From Opitutaceae bacterium (lineage in GTDB: Bacteria > Verrucomicrobiota > Verrucomicrobiia > Opitutales > Opitutaceae), in contig JAUYAK010000112.1 of assembly GCA_030693515.1 (NCBI GenBank), positions 1 to 64,000 of the forward strand: 64,000 bases of DNA, written 5' to 3'. Position numbers and translations under genes: made by a program. The notes under the pieces are model-generated. The model had not been told where the DNA came from and ran no database searches. It was given only the letters and a program-made list of their open reading frames with translations. How positions within the stretch are numbered: position 1 is the stretch's first letter; every line of letters starts with the position of its first letter. Shown in pieces: positions 39,496 to 55,725 of this stretch.

Positions 39496-39553
39496 GAGCT
39501 CGCTTGCGAGCGATGGATTGCGTCGTCCGAATCGCGCGCAAGCGCACTCCTAC
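39492..39553. repeat. REP-like palindrome, same family as the copy after phoR
   Basis: GTAGGAGCTCGCTTGCGAGCGAT at the left and ATCGCGCGCAAGCGCACTCCTAC at the right form an inverted repeat related to the inner element at 16494-16574. It lies between convergent purK and the MocA-like gene. Confidence 0.75.
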
Positions 39554-40230
39554 CTTGCGCGGGAAACGCGTTCCGTGAACGCGGCCACATCCGCCGGCGT
39601 GTCGAGATCGAGAGCGAGTTCGGGTAGATCGACGGTGGCCACGTTTCCCGGGTCGGCGTTGAGCAACGCGCGGGCGCCTTCCTCGCCGGTGAGCGCCGCC
39701 AGGGCGGCGAAGTGGGCGCGGAGAAATAGGGCCGGCGCGCCCGGCCGCCCGCCGTAGCGCGCGGCCACGATGCTGCGCCCGGTGGCGCGTTGTGCGGCGA
39801 CGAGCTGCGCGATGGTGGCGGCGGAAAACGCCGGTTGGTCGCACAGCGCGACGAGCGCGGCGTCGATGCGGCGGGAGAACTGGCGCAGGGTCGTCACGCC
39901 GGCGCGTAGGGAGGAGGCCATGCCCTCGGCCCACGTGGGGTTTTCGGCGACGAGCACGGGCAGGCGGGCGAGGGCGGGGCGGATTTTCTCCGCGTGCGCG
40001 CCGAGCACGACGACGACCGGCCACGCGGGTGAGGCGAGCGCGGCCTCGACGGCGCGCACGAGCAAGGGACGGCCGCCGAGCTCGAGGAGCTGTTTCGGCG
40101 TGCCGAGCCGCGTCGAGGCGCCGGCGGCGAGGATGATGGCGCCGAAGCGGAAGGAATCTGTTTTTACAGGAGGCAACGGAGGGAACGGAGCGAAGATGAG
40201 GAAAAGGCCGGACTCATGCCAACATCCCAT
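39550..40230 (-). CDS. MobA/MocA-like nucleotidyltransferase (molybdenum cofactor)
   Basis: This protein is of the MobA-like NTP-transferase family (226 aa as drawn). The nucleotide-binding N-terminus is AIILAAGASTRLGTPKQLL, and VALCDQPAFSA and GRPGAPALFL match the MocA (molybdopterin cytidylyltransferase) pattern. Its neighbour upstream is XdhC-like, which inserts the finished cofactor into xanthine-dehydrogenase-type enzymes; the two often co-occur. The true start is uncertain: the first 20 residues, before the glycine-rich loop, look non-coding, and a TTG at about residue 20 is possible. No molybdoenzyme gene is in the window. Confidence 0.78.
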   Translation of the reverse strand: MGCWHESGLFLIFAPFPPLPPVKTDSFRFGAIILAAGASTRLGTPKQLLELGGRPLLVRAVEAALASPAWPVVVVLGAHAEKIRPALARLPVLVAENPTWAEGMASSLRAGVTTLRQFSRRIDAALVALCDQPAFSAATIAQLVAAQRATGRSIVAARYGGRPGAPALFLRAHFAALAALTGEEGARALLNADPGNVATVDLPELALDLDTPADVAAFTERVSRAR

Positions 40231-40249
40231 ACTGACTGGACTATTCCGG

Positions 40250-40335
40250 GGTGGGGCTGGCTCTCCGAGCCGGCCTGAGTTTCGGGGTGATGTGCACGCT
40301 GGAACTCAGGCCGCTTGCGGAGAAGCGGCCCCACC
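40250..40335. repeat. REP element related to those flanking the RAYT
   Basis: GTGGGGCTGGCTCTCCGAGCCGGCCTGAG at the left and CTCAGGCCGCTTGCGGAGAAGCGGCCCCACC at the right give the same core design as the REPs at 53060 and 53624 (GTGGGGC...CTCTCCGAG... and ...CGGAGAA...GGCCCCACC). It is a solitary copy between the MocA-like and XdhC-like genes. Confidence 0.8.
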
Positions 40336-40396
40336 CGCCAGAAGTCCAAACTTCAAAGGACGTTGGCATTGGTTCTCTCCGTTTCCTCCGGTGAAT

Positions 40397-41392
40397 TCAT
40401 TCGTGGATGGGCCGGGTGCGTTCGCGCAAGGGGCGGGCGTCGCGGCCGGCGAGGGCGGCCTGCATCTCGGCGAGGATGGCGAGGGCGACCGGCTCGGGAC
40501 CATCGGCGCCAAGGTCGAGTCCGACCGGGGCGTGGAGGCGCGCGCGTTGCTCGGGTGTCGGTGTGAAACCGTCGGCGGCGAGATCGGCGAGGATCTTCTC
40601 CGCGCGTTGACGCGGGCCGAGCAGGCCGAGGTAGGCGAGGGGCCGGGCGAGCAGGTCGCGGAGCAGGGGCACATCATGCACGTAGTGGTGAGTCATCACG
40701 ACGGCGAGGGTGGTGGCATCGGGAGCGGCTTGGGCCACGAGTTCGTTCGCCGGGCCGACCAGCAGCCGATGGGCGGTCGGGAAACGCGCCGCGGTCGCGA
40801 ACGCCGCCCGCGGATCCGCGACGGTGACCCGCCAGCCGAGTTCGTGGGCGAGCCGGGCGAGGGGCTGGGCGTCGTCGCCGGCCCCGAAGATGACGAGAGC
40901 GATCGGCGGCGCGACGGTTTCGGCGAAGAGCCGCCCCGGATCGGCGCAGTCGCCGGGCGCGGCGAGCCGGGTGCCCCAGGCGCTGCGGTCTTCGCCGCCG
41001 TGGATGATGCTGAGTTCGGCCGCTCGGCGTTGTTCGAAGCGACGCGCTAGGGCTTCCGCCCAAGCGGGTTGGGGCGCCAGAAGCTCGATGAGCACGCGAA
41101 CGACGCCATGGCAGCCGAGGCCCACGCCCCAGACGAGGTCGTTCTCGCTGCTGGTGTCATAAACCACCGCTTCGGCCTGCCCGGTGGCCCGCACCGCCGC
41201 TGCCCGGGCGATGACGTCTTCCTCCAAGCAGCCCCCGCTGATGGACCCCACCCGGCGGCCGTCGGCCAACAGGAGCAGGCGGGCTCCCGGGCGGCGGTAG
41301 GACGAGCCTTCGGCTGCCACGAGCGTGGCGAGCACGGCGCCCTTTTCCGGAGCCGCGAGCAGGGCGGCGACGATGGCGGGGAGTTCTTTCAT
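40397..41392 (-). CDS. XdhC/CoxI family protein
   Basis: This XdhC/CoxI-type protein (331 aa) binds molybdenum cofactor and helps load it into xanthine-dehydrogenase-like enzymes. It has an N-terminal XdhC-like domain (ATLVAAEGSSYRRPGARLLL, RVGSISGGCLEEDV). A C-terminal Rossmann segment follows with LVIFGAGDDAQPLARLAHEL, VVMTHHYVHD and LAYLGLLGPRQR. The ATG at 41392 is used since an upstream extension to 41467 has no family similarity. It lies upstream of and in line with the MocA-like gene, a REP in between. No target enzyme is seen in the window. Confidence 0.86.
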   Translation of the reverse strand: MKELPAIVAALLAAPEKGAVLATLVAAEGSSYRRPGARLLLLADGRRVGSISGGCLEEDVIARAAAVRATGQAEAVVYDTSSENDLVWGVGLGCHGVVRVLIELLAPQPAWAEALARRFEQRRAAELSIIHGGEDRSAWGTRLAAPGDCADPGRLFAETVAPPIALVIFGAGDDAQPLARLAHELGWRVTVADPRAAFATAARFPTAHRLLVGPANELVAQAAPDATTLAVVMTHHYVHDVPLLRDLLARPLAYLGLLGPRQRAEKILADLAADGFTPTPEQRARLHAPVGLDLGADGPEPVALAILAEMQAALAGRDARPLRERTRPIHE

Positions 41393-41582
41393 CGCGGTCC
41401 CCGACGACGCCCGACCGGGCCGGAAAAGCAAGCGCGCGACTCGGGGTGAACTTTCATCGGCAAACAAGGTCGTTCAATAATAGCTTGTGTTATGACACTA
41501 GTTTTCACCTTTTGCCGGTCCAACTAACGCGGCTTTTGCCGCATTGGCTGTTCCCACAACCACACAACCAACGAACACTACT

Positions 41583-44337
41583 ATGAACATCCGCACGCGG
41601 AAGTTAATGGCGACGCTTGCCCTTTTTGCCGGCGCGGCCGTTGTCCCCTCGGCGCTGGCTCAGCCCGCCGCCAATAAACCCGAAGAGACCGTCAAGCTCG
41701 AGAAGTTCACCGTCACCGGCACCCTCATTCCGGTGGCGGCGGGCTCGACCACCGTGCCCCTGACCATCATCGGTGCGCCGGAGCTTGAGAGGACCGGCAT
41801 CACGACCGACCTCATCGACGTGCTGCGTTCCAGCATGCCGTCCTTCTACGGTGGCAACAACCTGGGCTCGGACGTGGCCAACACGAACTCCGGCGACAGC
41901 AACGGCGGCTCCGCCATTTCACTGCGCAATCGCTCGACCCTCGTCCTCATCAACGGTCGCCGTGCGGCGAGCTCTCCCGTGGTCGCCACCGGCGGCAACA
42001 ACTTCGTCGATGTAAGCACAATTCCGTTCTCGGCCATCGAGCGTGTGGAAGTCCTCACCGACGGCGCCTCCGCCACCTACGGTTCCGATGCCGTCTCGGG
42101 TGTGGTGAACATCATCCTGAAGAAAAACTACAACGGTGCCGAGATCGGCGGCTCCTACAGCTTCAGCACCAATCAGGGGCATTGGGCCAACCGCTCCTAC
42201 TATATGGTCGGCGGCGCCAGCAACGCTAAGACCAGCGTGCTCTTTACCACCGAGTGGAAGCGCAGCGACCCGCTCTACCAGTATGAGCGTCCGTATTCCA
42301 CCGGTCTCTTCCGCACGCCCTCCTACGCCGGCATCGTCAGTATCGGGAATGATTTCTATTATCTGAACCCGAGCGCCAATGCTCCCGCCCTCAACGTCAA
42401 CCAGACGCCCGCGCAGCTGATCGCCTCCGGGGTTTACCGCGGCCCGCTCGATCAGACTGCCGCCTCGCAGTTCTTCGACCTGTCGCGCTACTCCACGTTG
42501 CTCGCCAAGGCGGAGCGCCGCAGTTTCACCACGGCGATCGAGCATCGCCTCACAGAGGACATCACCCTGTTCGGGCGACCTCATCTACTCGCTCAATGAG
42601 ACGCTGACCTCGCTCAACGCCCAGCCTGTCACCGGCAGCGTCCTGGCCAGCAACCCTAACAACCCGTTTAATGTCACCGTCACGGCGCGGAATCGCTTTA
42701 TTACCTTCCCCCGCCTCTACGCCAATGAGACCACGAATTTCCACGGCGTCGTTGGGGTAAAGGGTAAGCTGCCCATGGGCTGGAGCTACGAGGCGGGTGC
42801 CAACTTCAACAAGTCGATCCACCGCTTCCGCAACCGTAACCTGATTGACGGCGCGGCCTATAACGCGGCGGTGGCAAATCTCACCTTTAATCCGTTTGCG
42901 CGTAACCAAGCCCCGGGCGTGATCGAGGGCATGCTCGGCACGCAGGTGCGCGACTTTCTCAGCACGCTGCGCCAGCTCGATGTGCAGGTCTCCGGCCCGC
43001 TCTTTCGTCTCCCGGCCGGCGAGGTCCAGATGGGTGTGGGTGCCGGTTTCGTCTGGGAGCTGGTCGACTTTGTCAACGATCGCAACGACCAGATTTTAGG
43101 CGGTTGGCGTGATGCCACGCCACGTCAGCCGTTCAACGCCCGCTCCAACATCGACGGCTACTACGCCGAAATCCGCGTGCCGATCTTCAGCGAGCGCAAC
43201 GCCATCCCGTTCGTCCGCACGCTCGAGGCCTCGATCGCCGGCCGCTACGACAAGTATAGCACCACCTCGGACCCGACGACCCCGAAGTATTCGCTCCGCT
43301 GGATGCCGTTCAACGATGAGCTGATGTTCCGCGCCACCTACTCGGAGTCGTTTGTCGCCCCGACGCTCTTCGACCTCTATGGTCCATTGTCGCAGGGTTT
43401 CACGGCCACCATCAATATCCCGCGCTACAACTCCAGCGGTGCGGCGCTCGGAACGAATTCAGGCACGCGCCAATATCGCTCGCAGAGTGGCTCGAGCTCA
43501 ACGCTCAATCCCTCGCAGTCCCGCAATTGGACGGCGGGTGTCGTCTGGTCGCCCAAGGCCATCAAAGGCCTCTCGGTCACGGCCGACTGGTTCAACATCG
43601 ACGAGCGTGACCTCATCAACACGGTCCCTGCGATCACCATCGTGACCGACGTTGAGCGCCTCGGGCCGGCCTCCCAATATGCTTCGCTCGTCCGCCAGGC
43701 GGTCAGCGTCGGCGGCGAGTCCCATTTCGGCACCGGTGCCCCGATCACGGCGCCGGGCCAGGTCACCGGTCGTCCCTCCGATGAGATTTGGATCTCCAAC
43801 TCCAAGGTGAACGTCGCCGGCTACAATCAGGACGGCATGGACCTCAAGGTCACCTACGACTACCCGACCCAGAGCTGGGGCAAGCTGCGCGGCTCGGTCC
43901 TGGGCACCTACCTGCGCAACTACTACGTGCAGGATCTGCCCACCGTGGCGCCCCGTGGTTACCAAGACGGCTACTATCCCCGCGGCACCAATAGCTTGGG
44001 TGTCTTCCCTCGCTATCGCCTGAACAACCGCCTCGACTGGTCCTCCCGGGGCTGGGGCGCCGGCATCGGCCACACCTATGTGCCCTCGCTCGATGACCTC
44101 GGCAGCAACCCGAACGTGCGCGTCAGCAAGTATCACAAGTTCGACGTGCAGTTCAGCCACTCGTTTGGTCCGAACAGCAACCGTTGGGTCAAGGGCCTCT
44201 CGGCCACCGTCGGCATGAACAATGTCTTCAACAAGTTCCCGCCGCGCATCCCCTCCGAGGGCAACCAGTCGCACGACATCAACTCCTACGACCCCCTCGG
44301 CCGCCTCATCTACGTGCAGGCGAAGTATAAGTTCTAA
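41583..44337 (+). pseudogene. TonB-dependent receptor with a single-base frameshift
   Basis: Two frames join into one receptor of about 917 aa. The first (from ATG 41583) gives a signal peptide ending SALAQPAAN, then the plug with EKFTVTGTLIPVAAGS, STLVLINGRRAASSP and TDGASATYGSDAVSGVVNII. It runs to a stop at 42597. The other frame takes over exactly and continues through the barrel to ...GRLIYVQAKYKF with terminal Phe. At 42573-42575 the sequence TTCGGGCGACC has one G too many; removing it restores LFGDLIYSLNETLTSLNA. It may be a real mutation, a phase-variable G run or a base-calling error. It begins the receptor/peptidase region. The terminator at 44382 follows. Confidence 0.85.
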
Positions 44338-44381
44338 GGCGATCCCTGCCGATCGACCGGGGCCTGTGCCCCGCTCCATTG

Positions 44382-44415
44382 AAAGACCGGGCCTCTCACG
44401 GGGCCCGGTCTTTTT
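44382..44415 (+). terminator. rho-independent terminator
   Basis: AAAGACCGGGCC and GGCCCGGTCTTT form a perfect 12-bp stem, loop TCTCACGG, followed by a T run. It closes the frameshifted receptor gene. Confidence 0.9.
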
Positions 44416-44568
44416 CTTTGGGTTGTGGCGAAGCCCCGCGCGTGGATGACAATATTGCGACTTCGGCGTTGCCAAATGAGGCTCCGGTCGCTGTGTCATA
44501 AACCGTCACCACAACACCGGTTCGCCACCCAGCGGGCCGGCGACGCTTCCACCACACCACTGCTACCC

Positions 44569-47301
44569 ATGAACTCACCGCTCCCGGCGGCCGCGTCTGC
44601 GGCTGCCCGCCTTGGTCTTGTCGCATTCCTCTTGGCCGGCTCCCTCGCGGCCCAGACCGCTCCAGCTCCTGCTCCGACTGCCTCCGCACCGGCGGCTGAC
44701 ACGAAGAAAGAGACGCCCGCCAAACTGGAGGCCTTCGAGGTCACCGGCTCGCGCATCAAGCGGCTCGATTACGAGACCGCCTCGCCCGTGGTCACCTACA
44801 CTGCGCAGGCGATCGAGGACAAGGGCCTGGCCACGCTGGGCGAATTCGTCCAGAGCCTGCCTTACAACAACAGCACGGCGGTCTCCGAGTTCACGACCGG
44901 CAGCTTTGTCACCGGTGCGGCCACCATCAATCCCCGCGGGCTCGGCTCCAACCGCCTCCTCACGTTGGTCAACGGGCGCCGCGGCGTGCCCTACGCCCTC
45001 GCCAACAGCTCCAGCGGCACTCCGCAGACGGTCTTCAATTTCAACAGCATCCCGCAGGCGGCCATCGCGCGGCTCGAGTTCCTGAAGGATGGCGCCTCCG
45101 CCATCTACGGCTCGGATGCCATCACCGGCGTGATGAACATCATCCTCAAGAAGAGCTACGAAGGCTCCTCGGTGGACTTCACCGTCTCCAGCGCCCTGCG
45201 CCACGACACGCTGCGCAAGACCCTGAATATCTTTACCGGCCTCTCCAAGAACGGCTGGGAAATCACCGCCGGTCTGAGCCTCCAGAATCGTCACGACAGC
45301 TTCATCAAGGACTATGGGGTGACCACGACCAACTACACCTACCTCGGGCAGAAGGGCCAGAACATGACCAGCACCATCTTCTTCCCGTCCTACCTCTCGC
45401 TTACGGCGGCGCAGGCGGTGTCCTCGGGTTTTGGCACCGCGGGCGGCATCTACTACATCCCCAACGGCACGCCCACCGCCAATCCCACCCGCTCGAGCTT
45501 CGTCTATGCCGGCACCTCCACGGCTGCGCTCCCGCAAAGCAATCGCTTCGATTTCGCCAACGTCACCCAACTTTTTCCCGAGAGTGAGAGTCTGGGAGCC
45601 AACGTCAGCATCAGCCGCGTCCTGATGGAGAACGTCACGCTCTTCGCCAACGGTATGTTCAGCCGGGGCATCACCAACTACATGCAGCAGCCCTACGGCT
45701 TCACCACCACCCTCGCGGGCCTCACGCTGCCGGCCAGCAACCCCTACAATCCCACCGGCCTCAACCTCACCGCCACCGCCACCAGCGCACCCTTCTCTTA
45801 TCGCAGCAGCTATCTGCCCCGGCGCGAGGTGAAGACCACCACGATCTCCGGCGTGGCTGGCCTGCGCGGCACCGTCCTGCGCAAGTGGAACTGGGAGGCC
45901 GCCGTCAGCTACGGGCAGAACGACTCCACGCGTGATTCCGACCTCATTCTGTCCTCGACCTTCCAAAACGCCCTCAATGGCACGACCCGCGCCACGGCCT
46001 GGAACCCCTTCGGCCCCTCCGAGGATCCGGAGTTGGATCGCAAGCTCTACACCCGCTCCCGCGGCCACGACGGCAAGATCGACAGCCTCGGCTACGATGC
46101 CTCCATCAATGGCGCCCTCCTTGAGCTGCCGTGGCGGGGTGGCGGCGATCTCGGTATCGCCACCGGTGTCGAACACCGTCGCGACAACCTCCGCTCGGAC
46201 CCGGAGCCCAACAACTACCTCGGCTACACGGGCGTCCCGTCCTTCAAGGGCCGCCGCAACAGCGACTCGGTTTACGCCGAAGTCACCGCCCCCGTGCAAA
46301 AGTGGCTCGAGTTCCAGCTCGCCGTCCGCCACGAGCGCTACAGCGATTTCGGCAACACCACCAAGCCGAAATATGGCGTGAAGCTGCGCCTGCCCGACAC
46401 GCGCTTCCTCAACGTCGTCCTGCGCGCCTCGTATTCCGAGTCCTTCAAGGCTCCCGACCTCGGCCAGCTCTACGCCCCGCAGTCCAATGCCATCACGAGC
46501 ACCAGCCTGCTCGATCCGCTCCGCCCCCAGGATGCGGCCCGGCAGCTCCCCACGCGGGTCGGCGGCAACCCCAACCTCAAACCTGAGGAGGGCAAGGTCC
46601 AGTATGCCGGCGCCGTCTTCGAGGTTCCGGCGATCAAGGGGCTGAGCTTCAGCATCGACTACTTCGACACCCAGATCACCAACGTCATCAGCTCGCTCGG
46701 AGCCACCTACCTGCTCTCCGCCGAAGGCCGCCGGCTCTTCCCCAACGCCATTGAACGCGAGGCCACAACCGACGGCACTCCCGGCCGGATCGTCCGCATC
46801 GCCTCGATCTCCAACAACCTCGGCCTGCAGCTCTTCCGCGGCCTCGATTACGGCATGCGCTACACCCTGCGCAACACCCGCACCGGCACCTACACCTTCA
46901 CCGCCGATGTCCAGCAGGTGATCAAGAAAGGCTCCGATGCCGGCACCGGCCTGGGCTTCTTCAACAACACCGGCCTGGCCTTCGACATCGAGTGGCGCTA
47001 CAACTACAGCCTCGGCTGGAGCTACAAGAACTGGAGCGCCCGCACCACCGTCGATGTCGTCGGGAAATTCTTCAACGACAACTGGACCACCGCCGGCTGG
47101 GGCGAGAACGTCTTCACCCTCGTGAACCCCTCGATCAGCTACCGCGGCTTCCAGCGCACCTCGATCACGCTCGGCGTCACCAATGTCTTCGACACCCAGC
47201 CGCCGCCGAACGGGTTCCGCAGCCTCGGTTTCGACGACCGCATCTACGGGGCCGGCGCGCTCGGCATCTCCGGCTACCTCCGCGCGAGCCGCCGCTTCTA
47301 A
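44569..47301 (+). CDS. TonB-dependent receptor paired with S9 peptidase
   Basis: This is a full-length TonB-dependent receptor (910 aa). It has a signal peptide ending AGSLAAQTAP, a short Pro/Ala linker, and a plug (about 65-180) with EAFEVTGSRIKRLDYETASP, LLTLVNGRRGVP and LKDGASAIYGSDAITGVMNI. The barrel ends GYLRASRRF. The NPRGLGSNRLLTLVNGRR plug motif matches the receptor family usually annotated as peptide or plant-polymer transporters rather than siderophore receptors. The next gene, after a terminator, is an S9 peptidase. A peptide ligand is a reasonable guess, not proven. The ATG at 44569 is chosen for the signal peptide. Confidence 0.87.
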   Translation: MNSPLPAAASAAARLGLVAFLLAGSLAAQTAPAPAPTASAPAADTKKETPAKLEAFEVTGSRIKRLDYETASPVVTYTAQAIEDKGLATLGEFVQSLPYNNSTAVSEFTTGSFVTGAATINPRGLGSNRLLTLVNGRRGVPYALANSSSGTPQTVFNFNSIPQAAIARLEFLKDGASAIYGSDAITGVMNIILKKSYEGSSVDFTVSSALRHDTLRKTLNIFTGLSKNGWEITAGLSLQNRHDSFIKDYGVTTTNYTYLGQKGQNMTSTIFFPSYLSLTAAQAVSSGFGTAGGIYYIPNGTPTANPTRSSFVYAGTSTAALPQSNRFDFANVTQLFPESESLGANVSISRVLMENVTLFANGMFSRGITNYMQQPYGFTTTLAGLTLPASNPYNPTGLNLTATATSAPFSYRSSYLPRREVKTTTISGVAGLRGTVLRKWNWEAAVSYGQNDSTRDSDLILSSTFQNALNGTTRATAWNPFGPSEDPELDRKLYTRSRGHDGKIDSLGYDASINGALLELPWRGGGDLGIATGVEHRRDNLRSDPEPNNYLGYTGVPSFKGRRNSDSVYAEVTAPVQKWLEFQLAVRHERYSDFGNTTKPKYGVKLRLPDTRFLNVVLRASYSESFKAPDLGQLYAPQSNAITSTSLLDPLRPQDAARQLPTRVGGNPNLKPEEGKVQYAGAVFEVPAIKGLSFSIDYFDTQITNVISSLGATYLLSAEGRRLFPNAIEREATTDGTPGRIVRIASISNNLGLQLFRGLDYGMRYTLRNTRTGTYTFTADVQQVIKKGSDAGTGLGFFNNTGLAFDIEWRYNYSLGWSYKNWSARTTVDVVGKFFNDNWTTAGWGENVFTLVNPSISYRGFQRTSITLGVTNVFDTQPPPNGFRSLGFDDRIYGAGALGISGYLRASRRF

Positions 47302-47336
47302 TTCGGCGCGCGGTCCGGTCCGCCCGTTTCCCTCCG

Positions 47337-47370
47337 GCGCGCTTCCCTCAACCGGAAGCGCGCTTTTTTT
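47337..47370 (+). terminator. rho-independent terminator
   Basis: GCGCGCTTCC (47337-47346) and GGAAGCGCGC (47354-47363) pair perfectly around CTCAACC, followed by seven T. It lies just before the S9 peptidase start at 47376, so the peptidase either depends on read-through or has a promoter within this short gap. Confidence 0.9.
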
Positions 47371-47375
47371 ACCCC

Positions 47376-49358
47376 ATGCACTTCCTGCCCCTTCGTGCCG
47401 GCCTTGCGGCCTGCGGTCTCCTAGCCTCCGCCCTTCGCGCCGCGCCGCCCCCCGAGCTGCCCGTCGAGACTTTCTTCAAGAAATCCAACCTCGCCCAGCT
47501 CACCTTCTCGCCCGACGGCAAACGCCTCGCCTGCCTCGTGCCCTATGAGCGCCGCCTGAACCTCGCGGTGATCGATCTGGAGAAGAAGACCAAAAAACTC
47601 CTCACCAACTTCAGGGACAACGACGTCAGCTCCCTGCTCTGGGCCAACGACGACCGGCTGATCTTCACCAAGACCACCGATGGCCAGCCCGGCGCCACGG
47701 TTTACGCGATTAACCGCGACGGCCAGGACGGCGTGCTGCTTGTCGGCGGCGCGGGCGAGGCCGGCACGGAGCGCCAGGCCAATCCCCAGTTTCGCGGTCT
47801 GCTCGCCCGTCTGCCGAAGGACCCGAAGCACTTCCTCGTCCTCGGCAACCTCACCGACGCGCAGGGGCCGGATGTCTGCCTGATGAATCTCAAGACCGGC
47901 AAGCTCACCCTTGAGGTCGCCAACCCCGGCTGGGTCCGCCGCTGGGTGCTCGACCGCCAGCGCGTCGTGCGCGCCGGCATCGCAGTGCAGGGCCTGACCA
48001 CCACCGTCCTGCTGCGCGATCCCGCCAAGGGCACCTTCACCCCCGTCCACACCCGCCAGGCGGACGAGCCCGGCTGGACGCCGCTGGCCTTCGACGGCGA
48101 CGACCGCACGCTCTTCGTCTCCTCCAACCTCGGCCGCGATACCACCGCCGTCTACCGCTACGACACCGTGACGCGCACGATGGGCGAAATCGTCCACGGC
48201 GATCCCATCTACGATGTCGAAAGCGTAGTCCTGGATGAGGTGAAAAACAAAGTCGTCGGCCTCCGCATCAATGCCGACCTCCCCCGCCAGCACTGGCTCG
48301 ACCCGGAGACCGCGCAGCTCCAGCAGCGCATCGATGCGTCGCTCCGCGGCACCGTCAACCGTCTCCTCCACGCCGCACCGGACGGTTCGCGCCGCCTGAT
48401 CTTCGCCTCCAGCGACCGCGATCCCGGCGTCTATTACCTCTTCGATGCCGCCACCCGGAAGATCGAGGAAATCGCCGTGCTCAAACCCGGCATCGATCCG
48501 GACCAGATGGCCCCCATGAAACCGATCACGTTTCAGGCGCGCGACGGACTTACGATCCACGGCTACCTTACGCTCCCAGTCGGACGGGAGCCGAAAAAAC
48601 TACCGCTCATCCTCCATCCCCACGGCGGACCCTATGGCGTGCGCGACAGCTGGGGCTTCAATGCCGAGGTGCAGTTCTACGCCAACCGCGGCTACGCCGT
48701 CCTCCAGGTCAATTTCCGCGGCTCCGGCGGCTACGGCGACATGTTCGAGCGCGCCGGCTGGAAAAAATGGGGTCTCGAGATGCAGCACGATCTCAGCGAC
48801 GCCGTGCAATGGGCCGTTACCGAAGGCTTCGCTGATCCCGCCCGCGTCGTGATCGCCGGCGCGAGCTACGGTGGCTATGCGACGATGGCCGGACTCGTGT
48901 TTACGCCGGAGCTTTACTGTGCCGGCATCAACTACCTCGGCCGCGTGGACATCGCCGGCAAGATCCGTGATCAGGAAACGAAGGAGAGCCGGCACTGGTT
49001 CCAAACTCGCCTCGGCGATCCGGATCGGCCCGCGGACCGGCAGCGCCTGCGCGACACCTCGCCGGTTTATTTTGCCGATCGCATCGTGGCGCCGGTGCTC
49101 ATGGCCTACGGGAAAAACGACACGCAGGTGCGCATCGACCAAGGCTACGACATGGAGGCCGCGCTCAAAAAAGCCGGCAAGACCTACGAAATGATCATTG
49201 AGGAGAAGGAGGGCCACGGCTTCCGGAAGGAAGAGCTGAGCATCGCGTTCTTCACGCGCGTGGATGCCTTCCTGAAAAAATACGTCCCGCCGCCCGGCGG
49301 CCGCGTCGAAATCGGTCCGGCCAAGGTGGTCGAGACGCCGGCCTCATCGCCCCGCTGA
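47376..49358 (+). CDS. exported S9-family prolyl-oligopeptidase-type peptidase
   Basis: This S9C-type peptidase (660 aa) has a signal peptide ending SALRAAPPP. A seven-bladed propeller region (about 35-385) is followed by the alpha/beta-hydrolase domain (about 400-645). The catalytic triad can be placed: S497 in GASYGG, D582 in YGKNDTQV and H614 in KEGHGF. The oxyanion-side motif HPHGGPYGVRDSWGF is intact. It follows the receptor at 44569 with only a terminator between. It is a paralogue of the peptidase at 53725, sharing even the tail (IGPAKVVE vs IGPTKVVE). Periplasmic cleavage of imported peptides is the likely role. Confidence 0.9.
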   Translation: MHFLPLRAGLAACGLLASALRAAPPPELPVETFFKKSNLAQLTFSPDGKRLACLVPYERRLNLAVIDLEKKTKKLLTNFRDNDVSSLLWANDDRLIFTKTTDGQPGATVYAINRDGQDGVLLVGGAGEAGTERQANPQFRGLLARLPKDPKHFLVLGNLTDAQGPDVCLMNLKTGKLTLEVANPGWVRRWVLDRQRVVRAGIAVQGLTTTVLLRDPAKGTFTPVHTRQADEPGWTPLAFDGDDRTLFVSSNLGRDTTAVYRYDTVTRTMGEIVHGDPIYDVESVVLDEVKNKVVGLRINADLPRQHWLDPETAQLQQRIDASLRGTVNRLLHAAPDGSRRLIFASSDRDPGVYYLFDAATRKIEEIAVLKPGIDPDQMAPMKPITFQARDGLTIHGYLTLPVGREPKKLPLILHPHGGPYGVRDSWGFNAEVQFYANRGYAVLQVNFRGSGGYGDMFERAGWKKWGLEMQHDLSDAVQWAVTEGFADPARVVIAGASYGGYATMAGLVFTPELYCAGINYLGRVDIAGKIRDQETKESRHWFQTRLGDPDRPADRQRLRDTSPVYFADRIVAPVLMAYGKNDTQVRIDQGYDMEAALKKAGKTYEMIIEEKEGHGFRKEELSIAFFTRVDAFLKKYVPPPGGRVEIGPAKVVETPASSPR

Positions 49359-49404
49359 GGAAGTCGCTTTGCGCCCGGCACGGGAAGTGGTAGGAAGGCG
49401 GGCG

Positions 49405-49908
49405 TTGAGCACCGTCCTCATCCGCCATATCTTCCTTTCGCCGGGGCATAATTTCTTTGGCCGGCACGGCTTGCCTGCGGGCACGCATCCCGTGGTCGAT
49501 GTGGCGGCGGTGCGCTGCCGCGCCGGCCTCGGCCTGGAGGGCGATCGATTCTTCGGCTACCGGCCCGACTACAACGGGCAGGTGACGTTTTTTGCGTGGG
49601 AGACGGTGCTCGCGGCGCAACGCGAGTTCATGCGCCCCGGGCTGCGCCCCGAGGTATTTCGCCGCAATGTCATCACGCAGGGCGTCGACCTCCCCGCGCT
49701 GGCCGGCGTGCGTTTTGTGCTCGGCGGGATCGAGTTTGAAGGGGTGGGCGAGGCCAAGCCCTGCCACTGGATGGATCAGGTCGTGGCGCCCGGGGCCGAG
49801 GTGTGGCTGCGCGGGCGCGGGGGGCTTCGCGCGAAAATCCTCACCGCTGGCGACCTGCGCTGCGGCGAAGTCGTGTTGCGCACGCCGGAGCTGCTGGCGC
49901 TGGGTTAG
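49405..49908 (+). CDS. MOSC-domain protein
   Basis: This single-domain MOSC protein (167 aa) has RAGLGLEGDRFFGY, the DYNGQVTFFAWE segment and the conserved Cys in GEAKPCHWMD that can hold sulfur or bind molybdenum cofactor. MOSC domains carry sulfur for metal-sulfur cluster assembly or bind Moco; the small solo type is often linked to Moco-dependent detoxification. The TTG at 49405 is chosen as start because AGGAAGG lies 7 bases upstream and no ATG gives a better N-terminus. Codon usage is ordinary. Its link to the MocA/XdhC pair 8 kb away is possible but not shown. Confidence 0.82.
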   Translation: MSTVLIRHIFLSPGHNFFGRHGLPAGTHPVVDVAAVRCRAGLGLEGDRFFGYRPDYNGQVTFFAWETVLAAQREFMRPGLRPEVFRRNVITQGVDLPALAGVRFVLGGIEFEGVGEAKPCHWMDQVVAPGAEVWLRGRGGLRAKILTAGDLRCGEVVLRTPELLALG

Positions 49909-49920
49909 GCTTTTCTCCGA

Positions 49921-50002
49921 GGTGGGCGGGCGCGTCCCTGCGCCCGCATGGATGGATTTCCGCGCCCGCAACCATGCGGGCCCAGGGCCGGGCCCGCCCA
50001 CC
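49921..50002. repeat. intergenic palindrome (GGTGGGCGGGC...GCCCGCCCACC type)
   Basis: GGTGGGCGGGC pairs with GCCCGCCCACC at the ends, and inner TGCGCCCGCATG pairs with CATGCGGGCCCA. It lies between the MOSC gene and the next receptor. Confidence 0.75.
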
Positions 50003-50089
50003 TGCCGTCGTCATTTGGCTTGCCGGGCCACCGCGCCCGCGCGCTTCTTCCTGCCGCCGGCTGACCTCACCTTCACCCTCATCTTCCCT

Positions 50090-53032
50090 ATGAAACTGAT
50101 CCGCTCGCGGATGTTCATGGCCGGACTCGCCCTTCTCGCGGGCGCGCGCCTGGCCCCGTTGCCTATCCTCGCCCAGGCCGCCCCGTCGGCCGAGCCGCAG
50201 CAGAAGCTCGAGGCGTTTGTCGTCACCGGCTCCTACATTCCTTCGGTGGAGTCGTCGGTCGAAGCCGGCGCTTCCCCGGTCGTGCGCGTGGATCGCAAGG
50301 CCATCGACGAGTCCGGCCTCACGAGCACCGCTGAGCTCCTGCAAAAGATCACCGTCTCCAACGCCAACGCCGTCCCGATCTCCAACAACGCCCTCGGCTT
50401 CACGCCCGGTGCCAGCACGATCTCCCTGCGCGGCCTCGGGCCGGAGGCCACGCTCATTCTGATCAATGGCCGGCGCGTGGCGGCCTATCCCGTGGGCGTC
50501 GGCGGTGCGACCGCGTTTGTCGATCTCGGCTCGATTCCGCTCGCGGCGGTCGAGGCCATCGAGGTGCTCAAGGACGGGGCCTCGGCCATCTACGGCGCCG
50601 ATGCGGTGGCGGGCGTCGTCAACGTGAAGCTGCGCCGCGGCCTGAGCGGCAGCGAGGCCAGCCTCAGCTATGGCAACACGACGAACAAGGACTCGCACGA
50701 ATTCGTCGCCTCCCTCGCTACGGGCGTGAACACCGGGCGGGTCAGCCTCCTCGTCGGCCTCAATCTCTACCGCAAGGGCGGCATCAAGGATGCCGACCGC
50801 GACTACTCGCGCGTCGCGCCGTTCTCGAGTGCCAACTCCAGCCCGTTCAACCTCGAACTCTCGCGCTTCTCCGCCGCCGCCGCGATCGGCCAGCCCGTCG
50901 GCGCGCCCATCCGCGGCGTGGCCAACTTCGACTTTTCCTTTTTCGCCAATTCCGGGGCCGATGCCGGCAACACCGGCGCCCGCCCCGCCGCGCAATACAC
51001 CTACTCGCGCGACCGCGCCTCCACCTTCAATCCCAACGAATTTTCCTCCTCGTATCCCGAGGTGCGGCGCGGCGGCGGCATGCTGTCGGGCGAGGTGAAG
51101 CTGTTCCGCACGGACAACATCGCCGCCTACGGCGACCTCTCGTGGCAGCGCGTCAACGTGGACTACGAGCTCGCGCCCACCGCCACCGGCGACTTCGAGA
51201 CGCCCGGCCAAGTCTCGCTCGTCATCCCCGCCCGCACCGCCAACCCGATCCTCACGGTCCTCGATTTCAACACCTTCTCGCTCCTCTCCGTGCTGCCCGG
51301 CTTCCCGGTGCGCCTCGGGATGTTCCCCGGCCCCGGCACGCGCTTCGTCAATGGCACCGCGCAGCGCCTCGCGCCCGCCGGCGCGAGCAATCCCTTCAAC
51401 CCCTTCAACCAGGACATCTCGGGCGATTCCCGCGGCCGCCTCGCGGAATTTGGCAACCGCCTCATCCGCTCCCGCAACGATGCCGGGCTCATCACCGCCG
51501 GTATCAAGGGCGACAACGTCGCCGGCAAATGGAACTTCGACGCCTCCATCACCGGCAGCTCCATCCGTGACGTCACACGCAACCGCGCCACGTCCGCCAC
51601 GCGCTTCAACCAGGTCGTCAACGCCGCCTCCCCCGTCTTCGATCCGCGCAGTCCTTCCTACCTCGGCACGAGCACGCCCTACAACCCGTTCGGCTACTAC
51701 CGCAACCCGATCGCCGGCAACGCCGCGCTCGCCGACTACGCCCATGTCCCCTTCAGCGACGACCATAAATCCACGCTCGTGCAGCTCGCCGCCGTGGGCT
51801 CGACGCGCGAACTCCTGCGCCTGCCCGGCGGCGCCGTGGGCCTCGCGTTTGGCGCGGAGTTCCGCCGCGAGCAGCTTAACCAGAACCCGAGCGAGTTCGG
51901 TCTCGCGGGCGATCTTGTGGGTTTCGCGCCCAGCGCCGTCACCCGCGCGCAGCGCAAGGTCAGCGGCTTCTTCGCCGAGCTCCGCGTGCCGATTCTGGCG
52001 AGCCTCGAGGCCGGCCTCGCCGGGCGCCACGAGGTCTTCCACACCAGCGGCCAGGAGAAGACGGTGCCCAAGGCCACGCTCCGCTGGCAGCCCTTCTCGC
52101 GGCAGCTCACGCTCCGCGCCAGCTACTCGGAGGGTTTCCGCGAACCCTCGCTCTTCGAGCGCTACTCGTCGCCGATCTCCGCGCTCTCGCCGATCCTCGA
52201 TCCGCGCGATTTCTTCCTCGAGCCCGAGCAGCGCATCACGCTCCGCGGCAACCGCCGCCTCGCGGCCGAGAAGACCGACTACTTCAACACCGGCTTCGTG
52301 TGGTCGCCCACCCAGCCCCGAATCAAGGGCCTCACGCTCGGCGCGGATTTCTGGGCGGTCACCCGCACGGGCACCGTGCAGGCCAATCCGCAGAACACGG
52401 TGTATCGCTTCTTCGGCCTCACGCCCGGCGGGATGCTGCCGGGCGAGAGCGTGCAGTTCTCGTCGAGCGGCAGCATCAGCAGCGTCAACGCGCTTTTCTA
52501 CAATGTGGGCCGCACCGTCGTGGAAGGCTGGGATTTCAGCGGCGGCTACCAGCTGCTGACCGATGCCCTCGGCCGCTTCGACTTCTCGACGATTTGGACG
52601 CTGACGACGCGCTTCGACCGCGCGGCGGTGGCGGGTGCGACGCTGCGCAGCGTGCTCGGGCAGGATTCCACCAGCACGGCGGCCGACGGCTACCTCAAGC
52701 TCAAGGGCCGCGGCATCGTGAACTGGAGCTATCGCAACTGGGGCGTCGTGCTCGTGTGCCACTACACGGACGGCTTCGATGACTTCGATCCGCTCGGCAA
52801 CGCCTACCGCGTGCGCGACCGCTACCTCACGGATGCGCAGGTCTCCTACACCTTCCGCGGTTCACAAAAAGCGTGGCTGCGCGACACGCGCCTCACGCTC
52901 GGCGCCCGCAACGTCGCCGACTGGGACCCGCCGCAGGCCTACGGCAACGGCGGCAACTCCTCCAGCTACCCCGGCGGCCTCTACACCTCCGAAGGCCGCT
53001 TCATCTACTTCTCCGCGAACCGGAAATTCTGA
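50090..53032 (+). CDS. TonB-dependent receptor
   Basis: This is a full-length TonB-dependent receptor (980 aa). It has a signal peptide ending PILAQAAPS, then EAFVVTGSYIPSVESSVEAG leading into the plug (about 45-175) with LRGLGPEATLILINGRRVAA and LKDGASAIYGADAVAGVVNV. The barrel ends GRFIYFSANRKF with terminal Phe. It belongs to the same receptor group as those at 41583 and 44569. The ATG at 50090 gives the signal peptide. A RAYT flanked by REPs follows; beyond it on the other strand lies the second S9 peptidase. A peptide ligand is inferred from that company. Confidence 0.88.
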   Translation: MKLIRSRMFMAGLALLAGARLAPLPILAQAAPSAEPQQKLEAFVVTGSYIPSVESSVEAGASPVVRVDRKAIDESGLTSTAELLQKITVSNANAVPISNNALGFTPGASTISLRGLGPEATLILINGRRVAAYPVGVGGATAFVDLGSIPLAAVEAIEVLKDGASAIYGADAVAGVVNVKLRRGLSGSEASLSYGNTTNKDSHEFVASLATGVNTGRVSLLVGLNLYRKGGIKDADRDYSRVAPFSSANSSPFNLELSRFSAAAAIGQPVGAPIRGVANFDFSFFANSGADAGNTGARPAAQYTYSRDRASTFNPNEFSSSYPEVRRGGGMLSGEVKLFRTDNIAAYGDLSWQRVNVDYELAPTATGDFETPGQVSLVIPARTANPILTVLDFNTFSLLSVLPGFPVRLGMFPGPGTRFVNGTAQRLAPAGASNPFNPFNQDISGDSRGRLAEFGNRLIRSRNDAGLITAGIKGDNVAGKWNFDASITGSSIRDVTRNRATSATRFNQVVNAASPVFDPRSPSYLGTSTPYNPFGYYRNPIAGNAALADYAHVPFSDDHKSTLVQLAAVGSTRELLRLPGGAVGLAFGAEFRREQLNQNPSEFGLAGDLVGFAPSAVTRAQRKVSGFFAELRVPILASLEAGLAGRHEVFHTSGQEKTVPKATLRWQPFSRQLTLRASYSEGFREPSLFERYSSPISALSPILDPRDFFLEPEQRITLRGNRRLAAEKTDYFNTGFVWSPTQPRIKGLTLGADFWAVTRTGTVQANPQNTVYRFFGLTPGGMLPGESVQFSSSGSISSVNALFYNVGRTVVEGWDFSGGYQLLTDALGRFDFSTIWTLTTRFDRAAVAGATLRSVLGQDSTSTAADGYLKLKGRGIVNWSYRNWGVVLVCHYTDGFDDFDPLGNAYRVRDRYLTDAQVSYTFRGSQKAWLRDTRLTLGARNVADWDPPQAYGNGGNSSSYPGGLYTSEGRFIYFSANRKF

Positions 53033-53059
53033 GCGGCCGAATGCGAACGATGCCTTGCG

Positions 53060-53162
53060 GTGGGGCCCGCTCTCCGAGCGGGCCTGGGTTCCAAGGCTAA
53101 TTGCACCTCAAGCGAGAGAGCCTCCCCTTCAACCGAGGCCGGTTCGGAGAACCGGCCCCACC
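53060..53162. repeat. REP element, left flank of RAYT
   Basis: GTGGGGCCCGCTCTCCGAGC at the left and CGGTTCGGAGAACCGGCCCC at the right bracket a short spacer. The copy at 53624-53725 has the same arms nearly base for base. Such paired REPs around a Y1-type transposase are diagnostic of REPtrons. Confidence 0.88.
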
Positions 53163-53177
53163 TCACCGGTCCCCCTC

Positions 53178-53618
53178 ATGCGTTTCGTGCCGCGAAAACA
53201 TCTCCCTCACGATGTCCCCGCATGGGTGCCGAGCGGCACGTTGTTTTTTGTCACGCTGCACTGCGCGGTGCGTGGCCACACCCAACTGACGTGTTCGCCG
53301 GTCGGTGAAGCGCTGCTCGACGCGGTGGCGCACTATCACTCGGAGAGCCGTTGGTTCGCGCGCTTGTTTCTGCTCATGCCCGATCATGCCCACGCGCTCC
53401 TCGCGTTCCCGCGGAGTGAGGACCTGCGCGGCGTGGTTTCGGATTGAAAACGATTCACCGCGCGCCGTGCCGGCGTCGCATGGCAGCGGGGATTCTTCGA
53501 CCACCGCATCCGGGAGGGTGAGAACTGGCAACTGAAGGCCGACTACATCCGGGCCAATCCGGTCAGGCAGGGGCTTGTGGCGCGCGAGGCCGACTGGCCG
53601 TGGCGATTCGAGGCCTGA
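53178..53618 (+). pseudogene. REP-associated tyrosine transposase (RAYT) with in-frame stop
   Basis: This Y1-family (HUH) transposase mobilises REP elements. The first 89 codons give MRFVPRKHLPHDVPAW, TLFFVTLHCAVRG and the HUH motif LLMPDHAHALLAF (H70, H72). At 53445-53447 a TGA replaces what in RAYTs is normally a Trp codon (GVVSDW). The same frame then continues, KRFTARRAGVAWQRGFFDHR, to the catalytic-Tyr motif DYIRANPVRQGLV (Tyr at codon 123) and ends at 53618. The truncated product lacks the nucleophilic Tyr, so it should be inactive unless the stop is read through. Two matching REPs flank it at 53060 and 53624. Confidence 0.9.
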
Positions 53619-53623
53619 TCGAG

Positions 53624-53725
53624 GTGGGGCCCGCTCTCCGAGCGGGCATGGGTTGGCGAGTGATTCGAGGATGCCGCGTGAAAATAATCCTGAAACCCAG
53701 GCCGGTTCGGAGAACCGGCCCCACC
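53624..53725. repeat. REP element, right flank of RAYT
   Basis: GTGGGGCCCGCTCTCCGAGC and CGGTTCGGAGAACCGGCCCC repeat the arms of the left copy; only the inner spacer differs. Its right arm abuts the stop codon of the S9 peptidase on the opposite strand. Confidence 0.88.
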
Positions 53726-55725
53726 TATTTCTTTGCCGGCTCGACGACCTTCGTGGGGCCGATGGTCACGTGTGGATTCTTCAGGTGCGCGTCGAGGAAG
53801 CGCTCCAGCGCGGCGGCGAACGAGAGCGATTCGTTTTCGTTGCGGAAGCCGTGGCCTTGCTTGCCCTCGACGATCACTTGGTAGTCCGCGCCGTATTTTT
53901 TCAGCTGCGGCTCAAGGCGCGTCCAGTGGTTGATCTTCACGCGCGGATCCTCGGCGCCATAGGCGTGGAGCGTCGGAATCTTCAGGCGATCGACGAGCAG
54001 GATGGGGGAGGTGGCATCACGATAGGCGCGGTCGGGGCCGACCCATTCGGTGCGGTAGCTGAACTCGTCGCGGTCGCGCCACGCATCCTCGCCGGGCGAC
54101 CAGAACGTGATTTCAAGATCGGAGGCGCCCACGTAGTTCACGGCGCAGGCGTAGAGGTCGGGCGTGAGCATCGCGCCGGCGAGCGCCGCGTAGCCGCCGT
54201 AGCTCGCGCCGTAAATCGCGATGCGCTTAGGATCGGCGATGCCCTGCGCGATGGCCCATTTCACGCCGTCGGTGAGATCATCCTGCATGGCGCGGCCCCA
54301 TTGTTGGCGGCCCTTATTGATGAAGTCGCGGCCGTAGCCGCCGGAGCCGCGGTAGTTGGGCTGGAGCACGGCGTAGCCGCGGCTGGCGAGGAACTGCACG
54401 TCGCGGTCGAAGCCCCAGCTGTCGCGCACGCCGAAGGGGCCGCCGTGCGGGTGCACGACGAGCGGGATCTTTTTCCCCTCCAGGCCGCGCGGCACGGTCA
54501 GGTAGCCGTGGATCTCGAGGCCGTCGCGCGCGGTGTAGCGGATCGGCTGCATCGGCTGGAAGCGCGCGGGGTCGATGTTGGCGATGCGCTTGAATTGCGT
54601 GAGCGAGCCGTCCTTCTGGTCCAGGATGTAATAGACACCGGGCTCGCGGTCGTGGCCGACCCAGATGATCTCCACGCTGCCGTCGCGCGAAGTGCTGACC
54701 GTGCGGATGTCGCATCCGGTGAACGTGGCCGCGAGTTTGGCCTGCAGTGCGCCGCGGGCGGCGTCGAACCAGTGGTAGCGCTCCCGCGCGGCCTCATAGC
54801 GCACCCCGAGGAGGCGGGCCCGGTCGTGCGAGACAATGAGCTGGGCGATCTCGCCCTCGGGCGGGACGAAGAGCGCGGGGCCGCGCTCAAACGTGCGGGT
54901 GTCCAGCGCGTAGAGCGCGCCGCGGTCGTGCTCCTCGCGCGAGATGAGCCAGAGGGTGGTGTTGTCGGCGGCGAAGGCCTGCGGGTCCCACGTCTCCGCA
55001 TAGCCGTGGAAGGGGTGGGTGGCGACGGCGCGAAACCGCGCGCTGTTGTCGTCGCGGTGCTCCCAGATGATCTGCTTGCCTTCGAGGCGAGAGCGCAGAC
55101 GGAGCGCGCCACGGTGGTCGAAGTGCCAGTCCTTGAAGCGGTCGGACTCGCGCAGCTCCACGAGCGTGGAGCGGCCGCCGTTGCGCACATTGAGCAGGCC
55201 GACGGTGGGGGCCGTCCCGACGAAGGTCGCCTGGTCGATGTTGCCGGCGAAGATGCCGATGACGCCGAGTCGCTCCGGATCGGAAGGCAGGTGATCGACG
55301 ATGCCCGCGAAGTCGCCGGTGAGGTTGTTCTGGAGGCGCTGCGATTCGGCGAGGCGCACGACGGTCTTGCCGGTGAGATCGGTGGAGCCGATGAAGAACG
55401 ACTCGTTGCCCGAGACGTCGGCCTCGAAGATGATGCGGTCGTTTCCCTTCCAGAAAAAGCGGGCGAGGCTTTCGTCGGCCCCGCGCAGAATCATGCGCGA
55501 TTCCTTGGTCGCGCGGTCGAAGAGGCCGAGGGCGAGCTTCTTCTCGTGGGGAAACAGGAACGCGATCTTGGTGCCGTCGGGCGAGAGGCGGGGCTGGCGG
55601 AGCGCGGGGGTCGAGAAGAAGTCCTCGATTTTGAGCGGCTCAGGCGGCGCTTCGGCGGCGGGGGCGGGGGTGCCGAGCAGGAGGACCGCGAGCAGCGCGG
55701 TGGCGCGCGGGAGCGGGAGTTTCAT
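53725..55725 (-). CDS. exported S9-family prolyl-oligopeptidase-type peptidase
   Basis: This 666-residue S9 peptidase has a signal peptide ending TPAPAAEAP. An N-terminal propeller (about 35-400) is followed by a hydrolase domain with HPHGGPFGVRDSWGF. The nucleophile is S508 in GASYGG; the Asp lies in AEDPRV and the His in KQGHGF. It is closely related to the enzyme at 47376, including the DGLEIHGYLTVPRG and EPGVYYILD segments, so the two arose by duplication. It is convergent with the RAYT and its stop is adjacent to a REP. Its own receptor would be the one at 50090, though on the opposite strand. The cca gene lies 12 bases upstream on the same strand, suggesting co-transcription. Confidence 0.9.
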   Translation of the reverse strand: MKLPLPRATALLAVLLLGTPAPAAEAPPEPLKIEDFFSTPALRQPRLSPDGTKIAFLFPHEKKLALGLFDRATKESRMILRGADESLARFFWKGNDRIIFEADVSGNESFFIGSTDLTGKTVVRLAESQRLQNNLTGDFAGIVDHLPSDPERLGVIGIFAGNIDQATFVGTAPTVGLLNVRNGGRSTLVELRESDRFKDWHFDHRGALRLRSRLEGKQIIWEHRDDNSARFRAVATHPFHGYAETWDPQAFAADNTTLWLISREEHDRGALYALDTRTFERGPALFVPPEGEIAQLIVSHDRARLLGVRYEAARERYHWFDAARGALQAKLAATFTGCDIRTVSTSRDGSVEIIWVGHDREPGVYYILDQKDGSLTQFKRIANIDPARFQPMQPIRYTARDGLEIHGYLTVPRGLEGKKIPLVVHPHGGPFGVRDSWGFDRDVQFLASRGYAVLQPNYRGSGGYGRDFINKGRQQWGRAMQDDLTDGVKWAIAQGIADPKRIAIYGASYGGYAALAGAMLTPDLYACAVNYVGASDLEITFWSPGEDAWRDRDEFSYRTEWVGPDRAYRDATSPILLVDRLKIPTLHAYGAEDPRVKINHWTRLEPQLKKYGADYQVIVEGKQGHGFRNENESLSFAAALERFLDAHLKNPHVTIGPTKVVEPAKK

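Follow-up and report, generated by a model that had tools for sequence, protein, structure and literature searches.

We analyzed a 64,000-nucleotide stretch of DNA (hereafter, the window; positions 1 to 64,000 of contig JAUYAK010000112.1, assembly GCA_030693515.1) from an Opitutaceae bacterium, whose genome is called G000 in this study. Positions 53060–53724 of the window form a REPtron, in which the gene for a REP-associated tyrosine transposase (RAYT; 53178–53618, plus strand) lies between two inverted pairs (REPINs) of repetitive extragenic palindromes (REPs). Very probably, the RAYT of this REPtron was long maintained by purifying selection and then inactivated by a nonsense mutation, which would leave the REPs without a recognised dedicated mobiliser.

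RAYT gene and its internal stop codon

The RAYT was assigned on the basis of its reading frame, profile searches, alignment with relatives and a structural match. The frame extends from the ATG at 53178 to the natural stop, a TGA at 53616–53618, and comprises 146 codons plus this stop. Its sole internal stop is another TGA at 53445–53447 (codon 90). With this codon read as Trp, the translation scored 88.1 bits on the NCBIfam profile REP_Tyr_transpos (NF047646; cut-off, 80), and the same gene scored 84.8 bits in a genome search that read through stops. The score on Pfam Y1_Tnp (PF01797) was 17.9 bits, under the gathering cut-off of 23; the open frame of the nearest relative, found in genome G220, also fell short of it (16.9 bits), and locus L048 just passed (23.2 bits). 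A profile built from 11 relatives gave 4er8, which we take to be E. coli TnpAREP, as the best match in the Protein Data Bank (E = 2.4e-14). Together with the flanking REPINs, the NCBIfam score and this structural match support the assignment as a REPtron, which had been proposed in a first-pass annotation of the window made from the sequence alone.

The internal TGA is located between the HUH motif, His70-Ala-His72 (53385–53393), and the catalytic tyrosine position, Tyr123 (53544–53546). Thirty-eight relatives from the family were aligned, all without stops; His70 is present in 37 of them, and His72 and Tyr123 are present in all 38. At the column of the stop codon, Trp predominates both in these relatives (29 of 38, with Phe in the others) and in 33 aligned relatives from the genus (Trp 28, Phe 2, Ile 2, Leu 1). 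The initial description, a 146-codon frame broken only by the TGA at 53445, between the HUH motif and the catalytic Tyr, was therefore correct. The window gene retains the HUH motif and a single Tyr in the YIxxNPV region, the latter after the stop. It is a single-copy gene with its own REPs on both sides, and the next RAYT in the genome is 50% identical. As its full-length frame is not open, we classified it as a pseudogene member of the RAYTs.

Recoding of the TGA as Trp was ruled out because the terminator of the gene is also TGA and its six other Trp codons are TGG. Reinitiation yielding the Tyr-bearing half was judged unlikely: no in-frame ATG, GTG or TTG is present from the stop to Tyr123, and the only possible near-starts are ATC at codon 111 and CTG at codon 119. 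The likely product is an 89-residue protein with the HUH metal site and without the tyrosine nucleophile. According to established HUH Y1 chemistry, a fragment that lacks this nucleophile would be unable to cut or join single-stranded REP DNA.

The frame after the stop was also described initially as clean, and this was borne out: there is no other internal stop, and at each of the 21 columns where 95% or more of the 38 relatives agree, the window gene keeps the shared residue. The 21 kept columns cap neutral change since the loss at about 0.057 per site (95%), whereas the limit set by the lack of other internal stops is looser, at 0.22. The break had been called recent; the data bear this out no further than as a rough upper limit of about 0.06 changes per site. 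Among the matches listed, the nearest relative is on contig C48 of G220, which belongs to another genus, and is 70% identical. Relative to this gene, nonsynonymous change (dN) was 0.236 and synonymous change was close to saturation. The part of the gene after the stop did not change faster (dN, 0.166) than the part before it (0.286). These values indicate that the gene had been under purifying selection, with no sign of long decay.

REP family and other RAYTs

The upstream REPIN (53059–53165; inverted pair, 53060–53161; 102-nt class) consists of REP 1 (53060–53084, plus strand) and REP 2 (53137–53161, minus strand). The downstream REPIN (53623–53726; inverted pair, 53624–53724; 101-nt class) consists of REP 3 (53624–53648, plus strand) and REP 4 (53700–53724, minus strand), and adjoins the stop codon of a minus-strand peptidase gene with its end at 53725. 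REPs with the same arms had been noted on either side of the RAYT; we amended their count to four, in two REPINs. The REPs were defined by matches to the REP head or core and by folding. All four consist of GTGG as an unpaired head, a stem of 9 bp (8 bp in REP 3) and a TCC loop of 3 nt, and for each of them 0 of 200 shuffles folded as well. The whole REPINs, also defined as repeats, folded with z-scores of −3.6 (upstream; 1 of 200 shuffles as good) and −4.7 (downstream; 0 of 200). The flanking REPs read GTGGGGC-CCGC-TCTCCGA-GCGG and GTGGGGC-CGGT-TCTCCGA-ACCG, in the same order on both sides of the RAYT. The outer parts of the two REPINs are direct repeats (97% identity over 32 nt and 92% over 38 nt), and their spacers differ. 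In the window, a 21-nt REP core with up to three mismatches gave five matches at three places, against 0 expected from shuffles.

The number of REPs in the genome had been set beforehand as a check. The REP head GTGGGGCNNNNTCTCCGA occurs exactly 48 times in G000, and the reversed control occurs 0 times. The stem arms covary at the positions left free by the head pattern: 64 of 68 cells were paired over 17 distinct REPs in G000 (maximum of 1000 shuffles, 58), 57 of 60 in G011, a genome of the same genus (shuffle maximum, 51), and 40 of 40 in G220 (shuffle maximum, 37). Identical copies were merged in the script counts, so that 47 of 48 REPs were kept in G000, and 21 and 22 of 37 in G220. A partner with up to two mismatches outside the variable arm was found for 39 of the 47 G000 REPs. 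The family thus shows a GTRG head, a hairpin, many copies and inverted pairs, the features of REPs and REPINs. The RAYT-flanking REPINs measure 101–102 nt, and most others in G000 measure 82–85 nt, many of them with a loop variant in the right arm. Decay of the G000 REPINs, as a reason for the few exact-head pairs, was ruled out; many imperfect partners share one loop variant.

Exact heads were found in 37 of 252 genomes of the family; with the reversed control, seven genomes had one hit each. Nine genomes contain at least seven exact heads: G000 (48), G011 (38), G220 (37), G123 (16), G005 (14), G228 (11), G056 (9), G227 (9) and G040 (7). RAYT matches with an E value of 1e-25 or better were present in 89 of the 252 genomes (151 matches, as the sum of per-genome counts); G040 and G056 have REP heads and no RAYT match at this threshold.

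We scanned 101 loci, duplicates included, for exact heads, the RAYT-like ones with at most 1.5 kb of flank. Heads were found near the window RAYT (L008, L216), the G220 relative (L074, L229) and L233, a Y1 gene of G000 that scores under the RAYT cut-off and has a REP at a distance of about 0.7 kb; L336 and L337, both fetched for their REPs alone, also showed them. Among the loci scanned, no exact head was found near six RAYT loci of G123, G227 and G228, three of G005, or the five RAYT rows of G011. Besides the window RAYT, 33 RAYT or Y1 loci, the three of G005 among them, gave no head-like match within up to 1.5 kb on each side. By reading, 12 of 14 RAYT neighbourhoods had REP-like inverted repeats of their own to the left and right of the gene, and in most of them the head resembles GGTRG; of the remaining two, L010 had only weak repeats, and L050 had been cut elsewhere than its gene. 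By eye, L047, L048, L049, L051, L063, L064 and L009 have their own inverted REP pairs, and several have in common a GGTRG-like head and an apex with CTCCG in it.

A search for another intact RAYT in the genome, as suggested in the first-pass annotation, detected an open gene at C38:90004 (L009), the nearest same-genome RAYT, but its REPs carry a different head. The third RAYT of G000 (L010, C89:59061-59486) is 46% identical to the window gene and has one in-frame TGA at another Trp column. As no second RAYT with this REP family beside it was found in G000, the REPs of this genome appear to be without a recognised dedicated mobiliser at present. The frame of the G220 relative is open, with ACG at the position of the window ATG. 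No in-frame ATG or GTG is present back to its upstream stop, where the only candidate is a TTG 40 codons upstream, and the gene departs from the family at F107 and H109, columns kept by the other 37 relatives. The G220 RAYT thus looks damaged or impaired. Within the short flanks scanned, no clearly sound RAYT was found beside this REP family in the genomes surveyed.

Single in-frame stops are not confined to the window gene. Among the matches listed, at least 9 of the 151 family RAYTs carry one, two in G000 and seven in other genomes. Since they reach this number, nonsense decay looks like a regular and ordinary fate of RAYTs in the family. We read ten broken RAYTs (nine family rows and one from the genus survey), which contain seven TGA, two TAG and one TAA. 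Their stop columns were examined in an alignment of 10 genus relatives beside 12 loci of interest. Six of the ten stops stand in place of what is Trp in relatives (in the case of L055, in its closest relatives, by eye), and in L116, L117 and L122, from three different genera, the stop is at the same Trp102 column (TGA, TGA and TAG, respectively). This clustering was taken as ordinary rather than as a signal, because TGG lies close to two stop codons. In G000, L004 (C89:49884-50102), a Y1_Tnp gene of another type, has an in-frame TAG at the position of a Trp in its relative L002.

Alternative readings and history of the locus

A sequencing or assembly error, with the RAYT intact in the organism, is improbable. 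The second broken RAYT of G000 (C89:59061) also has a single TGA at a Trp column, which may indicate a systematic problem, but seven of the nine single-stop RAYTs listed are outside G000, the neighbouring long genes of the window are open, and a background of at least 9 in 151 would be far above usual per-base error rates. We regard a leaky UGA, by which read-through would supply some full-length RAYT and the stop would be a brake rather than a loss, as slightly less probable again. An A follows the stop codon, the part of the gene after the stop is kept, and TGA is the stop in seven of the ten broken RAYTs; against this, most of the ten carry their stops at differing columns, the nearest relative is free of a stop at this position, and the RAYT uses TGA as its own terminator. 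The mixed stop types and columns look like plain mutation. The smallest weight is given to retention of the 89-residue HUH fragment as a REP-binding protein or regulator. The HUH region is indeed retained, but on its own the fragment gives a match to Y1_Tnp no better than E = 0.21, and a long fragment-only function would predict faster amino-acid change after the stop, which was not observed.

Several points also weigh against a knock-out by nonsense mutation. Phe is tolerated at the stop column (9 of 38 family relatives), and the second TGA-broken RAYT of G000 could reflect either decay or systematic error. For the comparison with close TGG strains proposed in the first pass, no closely related strain turned up whose intact RAYT could date the break, and the best relatives are 53% identical in the genus and 70% in the family (among the matches listed). 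In addition, a RAYT that does not adjoin these REPs might act on them in trans.

The loss of the RAYT by a nonsense codon is compatible with two histories of the locus. In G011 (listed as 100% complete with 7% contamination, 30 contigs), the orthologous spacer aligns at 88.6% from the end of the upstream TonB-receptor-like gene (53032 in the window) up to and including the first REP, and the alignment picks up again near 53717, within the last G000 REP. This spacer contains one left half-REPIN and no RAYT. The alignment fits either a loss of the RAYT from G011 by deletion or its acquisition by G000. The chance that the RAYT was never at this site in the G011 line, and that G000 gained it with a second REPIN beside an existing one, is put at slightly below even. 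Such a gain is favoured by the spacers of G019, G007, G009, G005 and G025, which have both neighbours (TonB end, 58–68% identical) and show neither a REP head nor a RAYT match. It is also favoured by G010, which has 0 REP heads and the peptidase most similar to the G000 one (83% identity, against 79% for G011); in G010, the TonB neighbour was not detected beside this peptidase. However, the left half-REPIN at the G011 site fits deletion equally, and the direct-repeat outer parts of the flanking REPINs could recombine. Horizontal transfer is possible.

MITE-like elements and published systems

A third relative of the flanking REPs had been reported at 40250. It is real (REPIN at 40251–40334), but it belongs to another size class, lies inside an element resembling a miniature inverted-repeat transposable element (MITE) and is not a simple sister of the RAYT-flanking REPs. 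This MITE-like element (40217–40368) has the inverted ends TGCCAAC.../...GTTGGCA and the 84-nt REPIN at its centre. It was recognised from the family alignment, its copies in the genome and the same spacer without it in G010, G011 and G014; the window copy has no matching 3-nt duplication. The REPIN carries the same REP head and, in the right arm, the loop variant CTCCGC (shuffles as good: left REP, 0 of 200; right REP, 6 of 200).

The MITE-like family measures approximately 150–165 bp, has terminal inverted repeats and carries a REPIN at its centre (L104, L105, L024 and others). It is common to G000, G011 and G220, and one exact-head copy is present in G025 (L137). At least 12 of 34 paired REP loci of G000 lie inside a longer element with ends like TACCAACGTCCCGT / GGGACGTTGGTA. 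The MITE type accounts for 9 of 28 paired loci in G011 and 1 of 7 in G220; near-identical copies were merged, we set the thresholds, and the G000 ends were used, so that G220 is undercounted. Identical TNA 3-nt flanks were found in 7 of 8 copies of G220 (12 loci were given, of which 8 copies yielded both ends; 16 rows, both directions), 6 of 12 of G000 and 0 of 10 of G011, whose ends are mostly more degraded. Among G000 copies picked by hand, the median identity of the REPIN core was 0.905 in the MITE type (11 copies), 0.735 in non-MITE REPINs of the same size (10) and 0.653 in the 101-nt class (6).

Part of the REP family thus lies in a MITE-like element that has its own terminal repeats and, in many copies, TNA duplications, and we infer that REPs may be mobilised by this route with no RAYT needed. 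A tentative and rather doubtful extension is that the REP family has changed vehicles, with its RAYT broken in G000, damaged in G220 and not found in G011, and with its most similar copies in an IS5-like MITE, as whose core the hairpins would now spread or persist. By eye, no parent insertion sequence with the MITE ends (ACCAACGTC) was recognised in nine loci read of the 22 places found.

In G220, L340 and L346 have, by eye, the same MITE ends around a different palindromic core; because of this, the core may be exchangeable. L042, L045, L100, L113 and L114 are REPINs of 82–83 nt, some of which lie, by eye, between GAGGGCGTC-like and GACGCCCTC-like arms; these arms may mark another MITE-like carrier.

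The literature already describes RAYTs broken by nonsense codons whose REPs persist, as well as a MITE with a REP in it. Passages of PMC3686654 describe Pseudomonas and Stenotrophomonas RAYTs with nonsense or frameshift mutations, the persistence of their REPs, REP numbers by class and a model of REP decay following RAYT loss. The window REPtron is similar in its broken RAYT and surviving REPs but belongs to another phylum, and here one REP family can be traced through genomes in which the RAYT is broken, absent or damaged. GTGG-headed REPs have been described for Opitutus terrae, in a text that uses REPtron for a RAYT plus REPs (PMC3733652, in part); the likeness to the GTAG REPs and REPtrons treated there is one of description. 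REPtron Sm of S. maltophilia TnpAREP group 3, as outlined in part of PMC8266576, is alike in its perfect short stem, 3-nt loop and directly preceding tetranucleotide, a likeness of REP shape only; the head here is GTGG and not GTAG.

QMITE2 of Coxiella burnetii, according to passages of PMC5896051 and the review PMC10969869, is a 150–190 bp MITE containing a GTAG REP, with short copies that are REP-like. The elements here are MITE-like and likewise have a REP inside, but QMITE2 makes duplications of 7–11 nt, whereas many copies here have 3-nt TNA duplications and contain an inverted REP pair with a known RAYT. The TNA target and 3-bp duplication agree with those given for the IS1031 subgroup of the IS5 family in part of PMC12016507; the assignment is made from this target rule only, and no transposase with matching ends was found in the loci read. 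In listings and passages of open-licence PMC papers, we saw no description of a TNA-duplicating MITE that encloses a REPIN whose RAYT is known.

The REPIN persistence model of PMC8049555, in the portion seen, names RAYT evolution as a main issue outside the main study and gives it an elementary treatment in an appendix. The present family allows one set of REPs to be compared across RAYT states, namely nonsense-broken in G000 (48 heads), none beside it in G011 (38) and damaged in G220 (37), and this comparison is its most useful aspect. A MITE route, if true, would help explain how REPINs outlive their RAYT.

No promoters were detected in a scan of 52900–53800, and no Rfam match was found within 39000–55000. 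The names of the TonB-receptor-like and peptidase genes were taken from their translations. Two terminator-like sites are present in 52900–53800, little above the shuffle mean of 0.8.
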